NCBI RefSeq assembly: GCF_020164555.1
Contig: NZ_JAIQZB010000001.1
Coordinates: 248,001-312,000 of the forward strand
DNA from: Salegentibacter lacus
GTDB lineage: Bacteria; Bacteroidota; Bacteroidia; Flavobacteriales; Flavobacteriaceae
Direction of reading: 5' to 3'
DNA: 64,000 bases
The position numbers were made by a program, and so were the translations under genes. Shown in pieces: positions 55,823-64,000 of the stretch. The notes under the pieces are model-generated. The model was not told where the DNA came from. It saw only the letters and a program-made list of their open reading frames with translations, and did not search any database. Each line of letters starts with the position of its first letter. The first letter of the stretch is position 1.

Positions 55823-57160
55823 ATGGTTATGACAAATATTCAAGTAGTCTTACGCCCCAACAAAATAAAGAAAAATGGCACTATTCCTCTTGCCTTAAGA
55901 ATAAGTGAAAATTACAAGACCAATTATTATTTTTTGGGCCATTCGATTTTAGAGAAAGATTGGGATGAAACTTTGAAAAAAGTAAAAAAGACCCATCCAA
56001 ACCATAAAAAGCTAAACTATTTTCTCAACAAGAAAATCACCGAAGCACAAGATTTGTATTTTCATTCAGAAGATGATTTGACGCCCAGACAGATTAAAAA
56101 CAAACTCAAAGGGCCGGGTGGTTCTCAATCTTTCTTTGCAGTAGCGGCTGAACGTGTAAAGCAAAAATATGATAAAGGAACTTTTTCTGTCGCGAAATCT
56201 GAGCTGTCTATTCTCTATAATCTGGAAGAGTTTCTGAACCTCAAAACCAATCAAAAGAAAGATGCGGTTATTAAATCAATAAAAGAGCGAAGACGAATAA
56301 GAGTGAGTAAGACCAGAAAAGGTGAATATTCTTTTGAAGATGCCATTACCTATTTTAAGAGAAATACCCGACTGGAGTTTCGGGAAATGAATGAATCATT
56401 TCTAAATAAGTACAAAGCCTTCTGCTCCACTTACCTGGGACAAAAGACCCGAACCATCACAAACCAACTAATTTTTATTAGAACCCTCTTTAATGTTGCT
56501 ATAAAAGACGGGATTGTTTCTCAAAAGTATTATCCTTTCGGGGGCGAAAAAGAAAAAATCAGAATTGGCTCAGGAAATAAAATTGGACTGACTGCTGAGG
56601 AAGTTACCAAAATAGAAAATCTTGCAGTGGAAAGTCATTCTTCGATATGGCACACCAGAAATATTTGGCTTGTTTCCTTCTACTTTGCAGGTATAAGAAT
56701 TTCAGATGTTGTAGCCTTGAAGTGGACAGATGTAAAAGATGGTCGTCTGTACTATGTGATGAATAAGAATGAAAAACCATTGAGCTTTAAAGTCCCGGAC
56801 AAAGCCAAAACTATCTTTAATCTCTACCTGATGGATAAGACGGAAAACAATGGCTATATTTTTCCATTTTTAAAAGATGCAGATCGACGGGATCCAAAAA
56901 GCGTATTTCTTAAAATGAGGAACGCTACCAAGGTTTTAAATAAATTTCTGAAACGAATAGCTGACGAGTGCGAAATAGACAAGAACCTCTCAAACCACAT
57001 AGCCCGTCATACTTTTGGAAACATAGCCGGGGACAAAATTCACCCTCTCATGCTACAAAAGCTTTACCGACATAGTGACCTAAAAACCACGCTAAATTAC
57101 CAAGCCAACTTTATTCATAGAGATGCAGATGATGCACTGGACAGTGTAATCAATTTTTGA
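55823..57160 (+). CDS. Tyrosine recombinase / integrase
   Basis: 445 residues. The N-terminal arm-binding region (MTNIQVVLRPNKIKKNGTIPLALRI...YYFLGHSILEKDWD) is typical of Bacteroidetes mobile-element integrases. A SAM-like core-binding domain (~170-235) follows. Catalytic residues are visible: Arg292 (AGIRISDVVALKW), His392 and Arg395 (HIARHTFG), His417 (YRHSDLK) and Tyr426 (LNYQANF). It starts 170 bp from the tRNA-Met fragment, so it probably inserted this island. A decayed relative lies at 43308. Confidence 0.95.
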   Translation: MVMTNIQVVLRPNKIKKNGTIPLALRISENYKTNYYFLGHSILEKDWDETLKKVKKTHPNHKKLNYFLNKKITEAQDLYFHSEDDLTPRQIKNKLKGPGGSQSFFAVAAERVKQKYDKGTFSVAKSELSILYNLEEFLNLKTNQKKDAVIKSIKERRRIRVSKTRKGEYSFEDAITYFKRNTRLEFREMNESFLNKYKAFCSTYLGQKTRTITNQLIFIRTLFNVAIKDGIVSQKYYPFGGEKEKIRIGSGNKIGLTAEEVTKIENLAVESHSSIWHTRNIWLVSFYFAGIRISDVVALKWTDVKDGRLYYVMNKNEKPLSFKVPDKAKTIFNLYLMDKTENNGYIFPFLKDADRRDPKSVFLKMRNATKVLNKFLKRIADECEIDKNLSNHIARHTFGNIAGDKIHPLMLQKLYRHSDLKTTLNYQANFIHRDADDALDSVINF

Positions 57161-59476: not shown

Positions 59477-61144
59477 TTATTCTATTCCCCATTTAATAAT
59501 TTCATCAAAAGGAGATTCACCTTTTTCCTTGTAATATTCATAAATGTCATAGGCAATTTCAGGTTTTGTTTTCTTGAAAATCTGCTTCTCTAGTGCTTTG
59601 GAAGTTTTAGGTTGACCCTCTTTAATCGCTAAGATTTCTTCTTCTGACATTCCTGTTAAGTTTGCAATATCCTCATTTGGTATCAAGTCCTCTGTTTCTC
59701 CTTCAGATAAAGATCTTACTCCAATATCAATTAATTGCTGACGTAAATCTTCTTTTGGTAATGTTTTGTCAATTCCGTTATCATCACAAATTTTACGGTA
59801 AGACTTTTCCATATCAAAATAATCATCATCAACTATAGCTTTAACTGGTATATTATACTTCTTAAGAATTTCAATATAATTCCCAATGTTATCTTTCCCT
59901 CCAACACTACAAACTGAACAGTTGTTTTTGAAATAGTTTAAGTCCTTACCGTCTTCTGATTTAAGGTTTTCACTCAATTGACTAAATAATATTTTTTCAG
60001 TTTCTCCTTCTACCAAAACTACATTGGATGAAAAGAACATTTCTGCGTTCTCACTATTCAGGGAACGCTTTATTTTATTGTCTTCGTCAATATAATTTGA
60101 CGGTAGTTGATGTATTATTGAACCTTCATTTGATTTTTCAATGCGAACAATACTTCTGGGGTCAAGTCCAGAGATAAAGATGGGCGAATGAGAAGAGACA
60201 ATAACTTGACAGTCTGTTTCGCTAATTATCCTATCAATTAATTGACATAAGAATCTAATGCCTTGAGGGTGTATGAATAACTCAGGCTCTTCAATGCATA
60301 GGAGTTTTGATTTTGTTGCCTTATGTTTTAATGCTAATTCTAGCATCGCAATGATTATCGTGCTTTGTGTTCCAGTTCCCGTGTCCGATATATGGAAAAA
60401 CTTATTATTCTCTTTTACAAAAAGCTCGAGATTTCTAAGTAGTTCACTTGGCTTATTTTCTTTGGTTAGTTGAAACTTGATATCCTCAATAAACGTGATG
60501 ATTTGAGATGAATCTAAAATTTGAGTTTTTTCATTATTCAACATTTCTTCAATTAGAACATTAATCTGGTTCAATTGATTTTGTAATTCTTGATACCTAG
60601 GAGAAGATTCCAATATAGATTTCATTAATGTCCCAAAAGAAGTCCATTTAGATGCCGTCAAATCTTCTTTTGCGCTTCTATTTGGGAGAGCGACAACATT
60701 CTTTGCGAGTGAGCTCCGTAAGTCTGCCACTTTTTGATGAACAGGAAAACCCGCAACCCTAATCAGAAATTTATCAGCTATAGAGCCATCCAATTTTTGA
60801 TTTATAGTTAGAGTAATTTGAGCTGACATTGGGTCTTTTTTAAACTTTCCAGCAAAGATTCCTTTGTTCTTTTTTGTGGTTGGCAAGTCCCAGACTTCAT
60901 TCAGGTCATTAGTTACTAATGTAATCTCTATCAACAGCTCTTGACTTGTGTCAAAGTAGTAAGTTTCATCTAAATTCATATACCTAGGGTCTTTTGAACC
61001 TAGAATAAGATGAATTGCGTTTATGAGACTTGATTTTCCACTGTTATTTCTGCCTATAAGAGCGTACCTGCTTCCGTAAAGATTGAGCACTTGCTCATCC
61101 TTAAAGCTCTTGTAGTTTTTTACTCTTAGTTGATAGATTTTCAT
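59477..61144 (-). CDS. OLD/GajA-like ATPase-TOPRIM nuclease
   Basis: 555 residues. The N-terminal SMC/ABC ATPase has YALIGRNNSGKSSLINAI (Walker A), SDTGTGTQSTIIIAMLEL (signature region), KLLCIEEPELFIHP (Walker B) and QVIVSSHSPIFISGL (H loop). The C-terminal TOPRIM domain (~365-500) has NVVLVEGETEKILF (Glu) and VKAIVDDDYFD (DxD-like). OLD family nucleases cut DNA and protect against phage; GajA of Gabija has this layout. No GajB-type helicase gene is adjacent, so it is a stand-alone OLD system or works with the cassettes beside it. Confidence 0.88.
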   Translation of the reverse strand: MKIYQLRVKNYKSFKDEQVLNLYGSRYALIGRNNSGKSSLINAIHLILGSKDPRYMNLDETYYFDTSQELLIEITLVTNDLNEVWDLPTTKKNKGIFAGKFKKDPMSAQITLTINQKLDGSIADKFLIRVAGFPVHQKVADLRSSLAKNVVALPNRSAKEDLTASKWTSFGTLMKSILESSPRYQELQNQLNQINVLIEEMLNNEKTQILDSSQIITFIEDIKFQLTKENKPSELLRNLELFVKENNKFFHISDTGTGTQSTIIIAMLELALKHKATKSKLLCIEEPELFIHPQGIRFLCQLIDRIISETDCQVIVSSHSPIFISGLDPRSIVRIEKSNEGSIIHQLPSNYIDEDNKIKRSLNSENAEMFFSSNVVLVEGETEKILFSQLSENLKSEDGKDLNYFKNNCSVCSVGGKDNIGNYIEILKKYNIPVKAIVDDDYFDMEKSYRKICDDNGIDKTLPKEDLRQQLIDIGVRSLSEGETEDLIPNEDIANLTGMSEEEILAIKEGQPKTSKALEKQIFKKTKPEIAYDIYEYYKEKGESPFDEIIKWGIE

Positions 61145-61150
61145 TTTACT

Positions 61151-61167
61151 TAATTGTGGCTAATCGT
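61151..61167 (+). repeat. Direct repeat around small ORF, copy 1
   Basis: TAATTGTGGCTAATCGT. It recurs at 61399-61416 with one extra base, flanking the 42-codon gene. Confidence 0.75.
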
Positions 61168-61225
61168 ATAGATACAATTGCATTTATTCGGCATCTAATA
61201 ATAAATCGTCCGTATATTGATTAAC

Positions 61226-61354
61226 TTACTTTTTATTTCGTTTTGGTGGTTTTAAAGATGGTGTATTTCCGGGCGTATCTTTGTTATCTCTTGCTCGTCT
61301 ATCAGGTTTTCCTGTTGATTTAGCAATCCTTTTTGGTCCTGGTTTAAGTGCCAT
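61226..61354 (-). CDS. Small basic protein, 42 residues
   Basis: Starts at the ATG complementary to 61352-61354 and stops at 61226. The peptide begins MALKPGPKRIAKSTGKPDRR and ends PPKRNKK. It is very rich in Lys, Arg and Pro and probably disordered and nucleic-acid-binding. Direct repeats flank it, so it looks like a small cassette. No family recognised; it is too short to be certain that it is translated. Confidence 0.5.
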   Translation of the reverse strand: MALKPGPKRIAKSTGKPDRRARDNKDTPGNTPSLKPPKRNKK

Positions 61355-61398
61355 AATTCTTGTTTTTAATAATTTATATATATTCTATAATCTTTTTC

Positions 61399-61416
61399 TA
61401 ATTGTGGCTAACTCGT
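61399..61416 (+). repeat. Direct repeat around small ORF, copy 2
   Basis: TAATTGTGGCTAACTCGT, second copy of 61151-61167. Confidence 0.75.
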
Positions 61417-61504
61417 TATATCCCGCTTAATATAGCTTTTTTAAAATAAAAATCCTGGGATAAACTCACTTTAGCTAAATATAAAAAAATAAAATAAAAG
61501 GAGA

Positions 61505-61520
61505 TTACGGAAACCCGTAT
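61505..61520. promoter_or_regulatory. TTACGG-AAAC-CCGTAT near-palindrome
   Basis: Third copy of the motif seen at 39654 and 43619, here with one arm mismatch. It lies between the XRE gene and the small ORF. Confidence 0.4.
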
Positions 61521-61557
61521 AGAGTGGAAGTAGCGTTAAAATGTGGTAAGAGCGAAA

Positions 61558-61812
61558 TTACTTTTCTAAATTCTTAAGGGAGAATTTAAAATCAAATAAT
61601 TCTCGAGCTTGAATATCGAGGCCTTTTGCTAACTCAATAATCGTGGTAAGTGTAATATTTCTCTTTCCCTTTTCTATTTTGTTTAGATCAGCATAATCTA
61701 TATCACATTTTTGCGATAAGGATCTAAAACTTAAATTTTTACTCTGCCGAATCTTTCCAAAATTAGCTCCAAATTTAAGTAAAAAGTCTTCTTTATAATC
61801 GTTATTCTGCAT
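61558..61812 (-). CDS. XRE family HTH regulator
   Basis: 84 residues. FGANFGKIRQSKNLSFRSLSQKCDIDYADLNKIEKGKRNITLTTIIELAKGLDI is a complete Cro/CI-type HTH. It is single-domain and a DNA-binding repressor by family. It is divergent from the structured RNA / sigma / dCas12f locus, with about 100 bp of AT-rich sequence between the starts. It may regulate that locus; this is inference. Confidence 0.9.
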   Translation of the reverse strand: MQNNDYKEDFLLKFGANFGKIRQSKNLSFRSLSQKCDIDYADLNKIEKGKRNITLTTIIELAKGLDIQARELFDFKFSLKNLEK

Positions 61813-61911
61813 TGTAGCCCTATCTACAACTAAGGTGACTAAAAAATCTATAAATTATGTTGGAATATATTACAACATTAAATAATTATTTATATATTTA
61901 CCTCATATTAA

Positions 61912-61919
61912 TATATTTG
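61912..61919 (+). promoter_or_regulatory. -7 promoter element of the structured RNA
   Basis: TATATTTG, a full TAnnTTTG match. TTTA at 61889-61892 lies 19 bp upstream in the place of the -33 TTTG. Transcription would start near 61926, about 40 bases before the first stem. Confidence 0.6.
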
Positions 61920-61925
61920 CGAAAC

Positions 61926-62112
61926 TTCTTTAAGTAAAATATTAGAAGCATTCGCTTTGAATCTTGTATCAGAAAACTGGTAATTTTAAGGAACGAGATG
62001 ATAAGTGATAATGCTCACGACCCGGGCGTGGGCTTACTTGTCGTTCCATGGTATACCAGTACCTCTGATACAATAAGTAAAGTCCCATGCCCTCTCTTTT
62101 AGGGACTTCTTT
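61926..62112 (+). ncRNA. Structured non-coding RNA, candidate guide-RNA scaffold for dCas12f
   Basis: Nested stems, all read from sequence. P1 is TTGTATCAGA (61964-61973) / TCTGATACAA (62064-62073). P2 is ACTGGTA (61976-61982) / TACCAGT (62054-62060). P3 is GGAACGA (61990-61996) / TCGTTCC (62041-62047). P4 is TAAGT (62002-62006) / ACTTG (62036-62040). P5 is GCTCACG (62013-62019) / CGTGGGC (62027-62033). A further hairpin AAGTCCC (62080-62086) / GGGACTT (62102-62108), then CTTTTC, resembles a terminator. No ORF is inside. Its place before the sigma-dCas12f pair suggests a guide RNA; a leader or attenuator is the main alternative. The 5' and 3' ends are estimates. Confidence 0.7.
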
Positions 62113-62208
62113 TCAAAGCTACCTTCTCTTCATTCTTTATAGGAATTCGCTTAAGCTAAATCCATTTTAATTCTGGCGGTTTTTACCTCCACTTAAAAGC
62201 GACTGCTT

Positions 62209-62991
62209 ATGTTACAGCGTATTTTTAAATTATTACAACAAGGACATCCTGATGCTTTGGAGTTTATATATAATAAGTACCACCGCAATATCTTCTGGGT
62301 AGGCAGGCAAATTCTGGATGATGATTTTGCTGTGGAAACCCTAGTACAGGATACTTTTCTCATATTATGGGAGAAAAGGGACCGGATAGAACGACCGGAA
62401 CATATTTACTATTTCCTACGAATGGTAATGAAAAGGGAATGCTACACCTACTTCACTACCCCTAAAAATAAGTTTTTTAGAACCGTCAATTCCCTGGAAA
62501 GTTACGAGAACTACCAGGAATATTTGCACGGTTATGATCCTGAAAAAAAAGATCACCACCTACTTAGCCACGAAGCACAACAAAAAGCATTTGATAGGAT
62601 AAGAAGGGTTTTTCCATTGCTAAGCACTGAAAGAAAGCGTCTTATAGAACTCTGTCTGAAGTATAATTTTCGCTATAAAATTATTGGCCAGGTAATGGGC
62701 AGCAGTATTATCCATACCAGCAACGAGGTAAAAAGGGCTATCGAGGATATTAAGAATATTATCCACCAAGGCAGTACGCTTGAAACAAAACCTAAACCAC
62801 TGGTGGCAGTTAAGATTAAAGGTATGATGACCGAGGAACAGGAAAAGGTATTTCAACTGCGCTCGGAGAAGCAGTATTCTTTTGCTTCCATTGCAAAAGA
62901 GCTCAACCTTTCCCAAAAGGAGGTCCACCAGGAATTTATGGCCGCCTATAAACTGATGCAGCTAAAACACGAACAACAACAATCGGCTTAG
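62209..62991 (+). CDS. ECF-like sigma factor linked to dCas12f, with extra C-terminal HTH
   Basis: 260 residues. Region 2 (~14-82): ALEFIYNKYHRNIFWVGRQILDDDFAVETLVQDTFLILWEKRDRI...YYFLRMVMKRECYTYF. Region 4-like HTH (~125-186): FPLLSTERKRLIELCLKYNFRYKIIGQVMGSSIIHTSNEVKRAIEDI. A second HTH-like unit (~206-252), MTEEQEKVFQLRSEKQYSFASIAKELNLSQKEVHQEFMAAY, is beyond the normal ECF length. The first HTH is weakly conserved, which could mean reduced promoter reading. The dCas12f ATG follows the stop by 2 bp, so the two proteins are made together. I infer that dCas12f and a guide RNA recruit this sigma factor to DNA. Confidence 0.88.
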   Translation: MLQRIFKLLQQGHPDALEFIYNKYHRNIFWVGRQILDDDFAVETLVQDTFLILWEKRDRIERPEHIYYFLRMVMKRECYTYFTTPKNKFFRTVNSLESYENYQEYLHGYDPEKKDHHLLSHEAQQKAFDRIRRVFPLLSTERKRLIELCLKYNFRYKIIGQVMGSSIIHTSNEVKRAIEDIKNIIHQGSTLETKPKPLVAVKIKGMMTEEQEKVFQLRSEKQYSFASIAKELNLSQKEVHQEFMAAYKLMQLKHEQQQSA

Positions 62992-62993
62992 TG

Positions 62994-64000
62994 ATGGGAC
63001 AGGATACACTAAAACTCACCCGAAAGATTCAACTATTGATCGATTTGCCTACTAAGGAGGAAAGAAAGGAGGCCCTGGATAAACTCTACCAGTGGCAAAA
63101 TCGTTGCTTTAAAGCAGCAAACCTGATTGTTTCTCATCTCTACGTTCAGGAAATGATCCAGGAGTTCTTTTATTTATCGGAAGGGATAAAATACAAACTG
63201 GCAGATGAGAAGAAAAATGAAGATGGTATCTTGAATCGTTCCCGTATGAATACCACCTACAGGGTAGTATCCGATAGATATAAAGGAGAAATTCCTACCA
63301 ACATTTTAGGCAACTTAAACAATACTATAATTAGTTCCTTTATTAAAAACAGGCAGGAATACTGGAAAGGAGAACGCTCTTTAATGAACTTCAGAAGGGA
63401 TATGGCTTTTCCATTCGATATAGAAGGCATCAAAGGATTAACTTATAACGAAGAGAAAAAAGCCTTTTGCTTTCGCTTCTTTTCAATTCCCCTGAAGACC
63501 TACCTTGGAAAAGATTTTACTGATAAGCACAAATTAATGGAGCGGCTTGCAAAAGGAGAAATCAAGCTATGCGCTTCTCATATTCAATTGAAAAAGGGAA
63601 AAACCTATTTATTAGGTGTATTTGAAATCGAAAAAGAAAGACATACCCTTAAACCTAATGTGATTGCAGAGGCTTCTTTGTCCCTAGAATATCCTATAAT
63701 CGCGAAAACTGGGAAGTCTAAACTAACTATTGGTAACCGGGAAGAGTTCCTATATCGGAGATTAGCCATACAGGCTGCCAGAAAAAGAGCACAGGATGGA
63801 GCGACATTTTCTAAATCGGGCAAAGGGCGCAAGCGAAAAACAAAAGCTGTCCAAAAGTTCTACGATTTGGAAAAGAATTATGTGAGTAATCGGCTGCACC
63901 TGTATAGTCGGAAATTAATTGATTTTTGCATTAAGCACCAGGTTGGCACGCTCATTTTATTAAATCAAGAAGAGAAAATTGAGATTGCTAAAGAGGAAGA
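62994..64000 (+). CDS. Nuclease-dead Cas12f homologue (3' end outside window)
   Basis: 335 residues visible, no stop. The Cas12f pattern is clear: YKGEIPTNILGNLNNTIISSF, then YWKGERSLMNFRRDMAFPFD, FFSIPLKTYLGKDFTDKHKLMERLAKGEIKLCASHIQLKKGKTYLLGVFE, and a basic helix region KSGKGRKRKTKAVQKFYDLEKNYVSNRLHLYSRKLIDFC. Where active Cas12f has GVDLGI (RuvC-I Asp) this protein has ASLSLEYP, putting Ser228 in place of Asp. The RuvC-II Glu position reads GTLILLNQ, with Leu323. It should bind an RNA and its DNA target but not cut. ATG at 62994; a GTG one codon before overlaps the sigma stop. Confidence 0.88.
   Translation, partial: MGQDTLKLTRKIQLLIDLPTKEERKEALDKLYQWQNRCFKAANLIVSHLYVQEMIQEFFYLSEGIKYKLADEKKNEDGILNRSRMNTTYRVVSDRYKGEIPTNILGNLNNTIISSFIKNRQEYWKGERSLMNFRRDMAFPFDIEGIKGLTYNEEKKAFCFRFFSIPLKTYLGKDFTDKHKLMERLAKGEIKLCASHIQLKKGKTYLLGVFEIEKERHTLKPNVIAEASLSLEYPIIAKTGKSKLTIGNREEFLYRRLAIQAARKRAQDGATFSKSGKGRKRKTKAVQKFYDLEKNYVSNRLHLYSRKLIDFCIKHQVGTLILLNQEEKIEIAKEE

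Follow-up and report, generated by a model that had tools for sequence, protein, structure and literature searches.

A probable RNA-guided sigma factor system in Salegentibacter lacus with two leader RNAs as putative targets

INTRODUCTION

RNA-guided sigma factors were discovered only very recently, and their natural target genes constitute one of the main open questions. The closest described system, that of Flagellimonas (Allomuricauda) taeanensis, is reportedly the subject of a paper by Hoffmann, Sternberg and colleagues. Systems of this type, in which a nuclease-dead Cas12f (dCas12f) goes together with a sigmaE factor, are said to initiate transcription some way off the R-loop, reportedly about 46 bp downstream of the target in the published system, with the guide rather than a promoter motif choosing the start and a 5' G as the adjacent motif. 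Here, we describe a related locus in a 64-kb stretch of DNA (the window; contig NZ_JAIQZB010000001.1, positions 248,001 to 312,000) of the marine bacterium Salegentibacter lacus, whose assembly comprises 4.05 Mb in 128 contigs. The locus lies on the plus strand of contig C1, at the right end of the window, and consists of a structured leader RNA, a sigma factor gene and a Cas12f homologue. With a probability of roughly three in four, it is a dCas12f-sigmaE RNA-guided transcription system whose putative targets are its own leader and the leader of a SusCD operon, both matched in the direction of their operons. It thus offers concrete candidates for natural targets in a single genome, namely the promoter region of the system itself and a SusC-SusD-M16 peptidase operon.

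RESULTS

The locus encodes a sigma factor and a nuclease-dead Cas12f

The two proteins are encoded as follows.

62209..62991, plus strand: ECF-type sigma factor of 260 amino acids (Pfam Sigma70_r2 and Sigma70_r4, NCBIfam sigma70-ECF), orthologue of PDB 9n9q chain C 'RpoE'
62994..64000, plus strand, ending beyond the window at the equivalent of 64091: nuclease-dead Cas12f of 365 amino acids, orthologue of PDB 9n9c

The original prediction, made from the window alone, had read a Cas12f homologue that starts 2 bp behind a sigma factor gene, and the junction is indeed TAG-TG-ATG, with the Cas12f ATG at 62994 standing 2 bp past the sigma stop codon. The Cas12f gene runs past the window end; on contig C1 it encodes 365 amino acids from the ATG, or 366 from an overlapping GTG, and its product closes with ...AEKAGIELITD. 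In phmmer searches of the PDB, this protein scored 628 bits against 'Nuclease-deactivated Cas12f' 9n9c and also matched 9n9m, 9n9o and 9n9q, the next best score being 143 bits. The sigma factor scored 306 bits against 9n9q 'RpoE', its sole match up to E 0.01. The 363 dCas12f residues of the PDB entry are identical to the protein of a F. taeanensis locus (L164), and identity to the F. taeanensis pair is 75% for dCas12f and 55% for the sigma factor; the original assignment to the known dCas12f-sigma type was thus correct. The match of the Cas12f protein to guided_TnpB in the Pfam/NCBIfam scan was weak (58.7 bits, for a cut-off of 100).

The full protein also agrees with the predicted loss of nuclease activity. 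In an alignment with the Cas12f nuclease 9nzr, the RuvC-I Asp is replaced by Ser (VDLG vs EASLS), a gap takes the place of the RuvC-II Glu, and the sequence ends ahead of the zinc-binding (TNB)/RuvC-III part; the assignment of the catalytic residues is established knowledge. As originally read, neither a CRISPR array nor adaptation genes accompany the pair: no direct repeat of at least 20 bp occurs within 13.5 kb around the locus (L004), and Cas1 (PF01867) was not found anywhere in the genome by a search that was positive in 9 of 14 control genomes. The locus therefore does not have the array and adaptation genes of a CRISPR-Cas type V-F system. Because of the orthology to the solved pair, the lost nuclease residues and the absence of Cas1 and of any CRISPR-like repeat, we regard it as a new member of the dCas12f-sigmaE systems. 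In kind it is ordinary, a close orthologue of a solved system; what is interesting is its wiring.

Among 397 genomes of the family, 22 carry dCas12f, full-length in 17 and as fragments only in five (G021, G266, G364, G376 and G378), and relatives are encoded in 215 stretches of species genomes. The dCas12f open reading frames (ORFs) of 15 aligned relatives are 66-82% identical to the window protein. A sigma gene stands beside dCas12f in 78 of 81 relatives; of the three exceptions, two are truncated loci close to the end of a contig. Three matches to dCas12f on plasmids have less than 30% identity and are named TnpB or transposase. A second sigma-dCas12f cassette is present in the same S. lacus genome, on contig C118 (L005).

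The guide RNA gene lies behind dCas12f

A comparison of 29 loci, among them that of the window (L024/L035 and L027/L036 are the same places), revealed a conserved scaffold of about 68 nt behind dCas12f, as a rule closing with GCATATACAAC and followed by a variable guide. A covariance model built from 31 sequences recovered this scaffold in 22/22 dCas12f genomes, at 43 places, and in exactly the same 22 of the 397 genomes as the protein search, which covered the same genome set. Scaffold and guide lie behind dCas12f on the same strand in 80/80 named loci and on one viral contig, and 6 of the 17 scaffold pairs are kept through two-sided changes. For the window cassette, the scaffold is located outside the window just 3' of dCas12f (C1:312103-312171, window-equivalent 64103-64171; 89.5 bits), with the guide GGCGTGGGCTTTCTTATATT directly after it. 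This places the gene for the guide RNA 3' of dCas12f; binding of this RNA by dCas12f is predicted.

The C118 cassette has two scaffolds, and a lone weaker one is found at C118:172670. We also noted tandem guide RNA genes, up to four behind one dCas12f and with differing guides (L131 5367-5889 in G144; L132; L005). The one relative on a viral contig is distant (36% identity; L229, IMGVR_UViG_3300031998_005371); it has a scaffold-like match 179 bp downstream, and no sigma gene was found on this contig by tblastn.

The guide copies the centre of two leader RNAs

Upstream of the sigma gene, a leader RNA (element A) and its promoter box span 61912 to about 62150, some 240 bp, with the following parts.

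61912..61919, plus strand: TATATTTG, putative leader promoter, fitting the TAnnTTTG -7 box (TAnnTTTGC there in 35/41 leaders)
61920..62150, plus strand: structured leader RNA, from covariance model, covariation and alignment, its end set by eye
61964..61973, plus strand: 5' arm of the hypervariable helix P1, pairing with 62064-62073
62000..62019, plus strand: upstream arm GATAAG...GCTCACG, pairing with the centre (P4, P5) in the fold of the window copy
62025..62041, plus strand: leader centre GGCGTGGGCTTACTTGT, putative DNA target of the guide, with a G at 62024 on its 5' side
62064..62073, plus strand: 3' arm of P1, pairing with 61964-61973
62073..62091, plus strand: tail arm, for an alternative, terminator-like pairing with the same centre, then CTCTCTTTT at 62092-62100

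TAnnTTTG is given as the -7 box consensus of the Bacteroidetes housekeeping sigma factor in the excerpted text of PMC9723704. The window guide copies the leader centre in the same sense. On its own leader it matches at 14/16, with two mismatches to 62025-62041 in the first 16 nt and the 5' G at 62024. A second leader of the same genome, on contig C52 (L006), precedes a susC-susD-M16 peptidase operon by 430 bp and is matched at 15/16. The original prediction had proposed looking for the guide match upstream of genes in the full genome; of the places found, these two leaders stand before operons.

We parsed 42 guides, 39 of them from genomes with element A. Fifteen of these 39 match a leader at 13/16 or better, and for any of the 15 none of 300 shuffles did as well; 14 are in the same sense and one is antisense, and the 5' G is present in 12/15. 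When the 108 guides of the 80 named loci, which partly repeat the 22 dCas12f genomes, were sorted by a pattern rule, 63 fell into the class of the window guide (A-type), 14 into a CCTTCCC class and four into the TTGTGGGAT class of F. taeanensis, with 27 others. In 24 of the 80 loci, an A-type guide occurs together with a leader of the same locus; the guide matches at 13/16 or better in 21 of the 24, and a 5' G is present in 23 of the 24.

Two side observations concern other guides. In Allomuricauda abyssi contig20, two cassettes lie about 10 kb apart in opposite orientation (L156 and L170); for one, a leader-type guide and no leader was found, and the other has a leader and a different guide, which suggests that one cassette may activate the other. 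The guide of a weak lone scaffold (L098 8699-8759, G329) matches the antisense of a leader tail (L118 7907-8069) at 14/16, so that its complex would point the other way.

The leader precedes sigma-dCas12f cassettes and SusCD operons

According to the covariance model, element A is present in 67 of the 397 genomes: in 19/22 with dCas12f and in 48/375 without it (Fisher odds ratio 43, p 2e-13). In the dCas12f genomes it occupies 43 places and accompanies full-length dCas12f in 17/17 genomes and fragments in 2/5. Among the 48 genomes with a leader and neither dCas12f nor scaffold, the best score exceeds 90 bits in 36 and lies at 34-75 bits in 12. A permissive Rfam scan of 61000-64000 gave nothing over the leader; its sole match was mir-21 on the other strand (62935-63001, E 2.6), far below the gathering score. 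The excerpted texts of the flavobacterial papers PMC6414381 and PMC9723704 do not mention the leader.

Further analyses used the 41 copies above 90 bits, leaving out L125 (28 bits), a 14-bit partial match on the reverse strand in L105 and the L126 place G309:C1:1941519 (33 bits, not recovered by nhmmer). On the same strand, 17 of the 41 precede sigma-dCas12f cassettes, 20 precede susC(-susD) and one precedes a lone sigma gene (L103); the remaining three are elsewhere (L105; L106, at a contig end; L124). The element stands about 1 kb before sigma in L127, and in L122 an overlapping ORF pair separates it from susC. Thirteen of the genes in third position in the 20 SusCD operons were scanned; nine encode peptidases (M16, zincin or S9), two amidohydrolase-like and two redoxin-like proteins.

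Twenty regions fetched from genomes lacking dCas12f hold 21 elements, of which 12 lie before susC, on its strand. The remaining nine, from three genomes (G297, G019 and G248), have no susC behind them, and one is followed by a short sigma-like ORF (L243). Such genomes hold up to seven leader copies. Some of the nine copies (L250-L254 in G248; L241-L244 in G297 and G019) stand beside a divergent XRE gene and are followed by no ORF of more than 160 amino acids for 0.8-2.3 kb, a picture that would also fit a free-standing RNA gene.

The leader has two predicted, mutually exclusive folds

In 41/41 copies, the centre is predicted to pair either with the upstream arm, as part of a long hairpin (P1-P5), or with the tail, as a terminator-like hairpin. 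Folded as separate segments, the long hairpin has a mean of -44.3 kcal/mol and the terminator-like one a mean of -29.8 kcal/mol, vs -15.9 with shuffled tails. None of 40 shuffled tails per copy was as stable in 40/41 copies; L112 had one. The tail arm is followed by a T-run, with a mean of 6.5 T in the next nine bases and six in the window copy.

The original prediction of a structured RNA upstream of sigma was borne out by covariation, counted in 100 distinct leader copies of the fetched loci with the arms re-dealt among copies as a control. P1, located in 99 copies with 79 distinct arm pairs, is paired in 638/711 cells vs 408 +- 12 after re-dealing; none of 2000 re-deals reached this value, and up to six pair types occur per position. 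P5 (96/100 copies) is paired in 101/105 cells (re-dealt 97.2; 4/2000 re-deals reach it) and the inner terminator helix (92/100 copies) in 123/126 (re-dealt 119.6; 8/2000). The outer terminator helix (76/100 copies) is weaker, with 107/120 cells paired and 40/2000 re-deals reaching this; for P5 and the terminator helices, the test rests on limited variation. P2 hardly varies (five distinct arm pairs), P3 is weak (72/120 cells vs 55.8 re-dealt), and P4 has no excess over re-dealing. In four distinct copies the centre reads GGTGTGG: both arms have changed (GCTCACA, CCACACC) in two, the upstream arm alone in one and neither in one. The RNAalifold consensus differs from the helices used here, which were tested by direct counting. 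P1 as a second guide was set aside as being a helix without sequence constraint, although no search was aimed at that idea.

With mutually exclusive helices, one of them followed by T's, and covariation support, the leader has the make-up of an attenuator. It is an RNA family without Rfam match, with two possible folds and a conserved centre that the commonest guides copy.

A second hairpin may serve another guide class

A second hairpin, GCCTTCCC...GGGAAGGC, is found in 7 of the 22 regions searched upstream of susC, at 77-82 bp from its start (L006 on C52, L102, L109, L112, L114, L117 and L118), and 174-176 bp before sigma in 2/19 (L133 and L134), both cassettes without element A. A guide of G100 matches the second hairpin before susC in L112 at 15/16, and another G100 guide has a 13/16 match roughly 196 bp ahead of its own sigma gene; for the CCTTCCC guide of G329, no such match was found in the fetched loci. 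The CCTTCCC-class guides (14/108) may use this hairpin as a target.

Genome setting

Divergent from the window leader, we found one further gene.

61558..61812, minus strand: XRE-type helix-turn-helix gene of 84 amino acids (Pfam HTH_3, E 1e-8)

Divergent XRE-like ORFs adjoin other leader copies too (C52 (L006), L113, L118, L120, L128, L130, L131 and others). Just upstream lies an OLD-like ATPase/TOPRIM gene (59477-61144) and, about 5 kb from the locus, a tyrosine integrase gene (55823-57160), with two ORFs without Pfam match between them. ARAGORN found no tRNA gene in the window. The C118 cassette is close to genes of the MobA-type relaxase and RhuM/Fic kinds (L005 1114-1986 and 3016-4011) and so possibly lies on a mobilisable region.

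DISCUSSION

The orthology, the loss of nuclease residues, the co-occurrence of scaffold and dCas12f, the same-sense guide matches, the placement of the leaders and their two possible folds are shown here. In the mechanism that we propose, the dead Cas12f would take up the guide RNA whose gene follows its own and, together with the sigma factor encoded next to it, would bring RNA polymerase to guide-matching DNA, namely the centres of the sigma-dCas12f leader itself and of the C52 SusC-SusD-M16 peptidase leader. Since the guide matches both leaders in the direction of the operons, the circuit probably combines positive feedback with activation of outer-membrane peptide uptake. A guided start downstream of the centre would give an RNA without the 5' half of the terminator-like hairpin, and such starts would thus escape the terminator. 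From these elements we infer binding, activation and terminator bypass.

Several observations weigh against this reading. Some concern the matches themselves: the base 5' of the C52 match is A, not G, and 24 of the 39 guides stay below 13/16 on any leader. In the S. lacus genome, the 17-base pattern with up to two mismatches occurs at six places (three guides, two leaders and one coding gene, KDPG aldolase-like by eye) vs eight for a reversed control; the guide-leader match therefore rests on place and conservation, not on count. Others concern the loci: of the 55 named loci with an A-type guide, 31 lack an upstream leader, and a leader is present in 18 of the 25 that have no such guide. Self-targeting is thus not general, and one cassette could activate another. 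Compared with the long hairpin, with which it shares a strand, the terminator-like fold is weaker by about 15 kcal/mol on average, and a terminator would need something to open this hairpin. Finally, the centre is kept without dCas12f: with up to one mismatch, it occurs at 31 places in 18 dCas12f-less genomes (reversed control 0), 30 of them in leaders as judged by eye and the thirty-first in a coding gene, amylase-like by eye. No other dCas12f was found in these 18 genomes, in a search without positive control. The idea that the leader is a mere target site kept by the guide was rejected, as 48/375 dCas12f-less genomes carry the leader. Since both leader and centre are conserved in such genomes, the guide does not account for their conservation; the centre has its own reason to be kept, and the likeliest view is that the guide was fitted to the centre.

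A wider proposal, which we advance tentatively and hold at somewhat below even odds, is that pre-existing two-state leaders before SusCD-peptidase operons form a shared address: with a guide that copies the conserved centre, one dCas12f-sigma complex would start transcription inside many leaders, past the terminator point. The genes of the complex itself and differently guided cassettes would be included, giving a cascade.

Among the alternatives, the one that survives best, although we consider it unlikely, is that dCas12f with its guide RNA acts in the leader as a roadblock, repressing the leader's own TAnnTTTG promoter, and that the sigma factor acts elsewhere. The putative target indeed lies about 105 bp downstream of this box, which is present in 35/41 leaders, and inside the presumed transcript; moreover, the excerpted text of PMC13418256 provides a precedent in TldR, RNA-guided regulators encoded by phages, by which a flagellin gene is silenced. 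However, the company of the sigma gene (78/81 relatives), the sigma chain in the solved orthologue and the same-sense guides, which point to the downstream operon, argue against it.

Still less probable is an action of the guide on the leader RNA instead of DNA, tipping the switch in trans via both arms. The guide is complementary to the upstream arm and to the tail, with both of which it can pair because it copies the centre. Against this, Cas12f proteins are established DNA binders, pairing within the leader should win over pairing in trans, and guides of the other classes do not match the leader.

The original prediction had taken the structured RNA before sigma for the guide RNA. That RNA is structured and adjoins the sigma gene, but we rejected this very improbable assignment, given the scaffold and guide behind dCas12f in all 80 named loci and the occurrence of the leader in 48/375 genomes without dCas12f. 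Least credible of all is a functionless, decayed CRISPR or TnpB remnant, which would fit the lost nuclease residues and the five of 22 genomes with fragments only, but not ORFs that remain 66-82% identical, a conserved scaffold and relatives in 215 stretches.

Comparison with known systems

The RNA-guided sigma reading, which we prefer, places the locus beside several described systems. As in transcription attenuators, one leader segment has two possible partners, an upstream arm and a tail that runs into T's; unlike in known attenuators, the leader has no Rfam match, its P1 is hypervariable and no ligand or leader peptide is known. With TldR, TnpB-like repressors guided by RNA, the locus would share RNA-guided transcription regulation without a CRISPR array. 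TldR is phage-encoded and silences a flagellin gene, whereas the window locus has a sigma partner; 'sigma factor' has no occurrence in the text of PMC13418256. The relationship to CRISPR-Cas12f nucleases (PDB 9nzr) is one of sequence over residues 84-362 (143 bits), but here there are no repeats nearby, no Cas1, and neither catalytic residues nor the C-terminal domain.

The closest likeness is to the F. taeanensis system (PDB 9n9c/9n9m/9n9o/9n9q), with orthologous proteins, the same gene order, the same C-terminal truncation and a scaffold behind dCas12f. A leader of the same family stands before the sigma gene of F. taeanensis too (L164). The F. taeanensis guide, TTGTGGGATATACGCTAACA, differs in class from the centre of its leader, GGCGTGAGCTTACTTATTGTC, whereas the window guide belongs to the commonest class (63/108). 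The setting differs as well, the locus described here lying in Salegentibacter, about 5 kb from a tyrosine integrase gene and beside an OLD-like gene.

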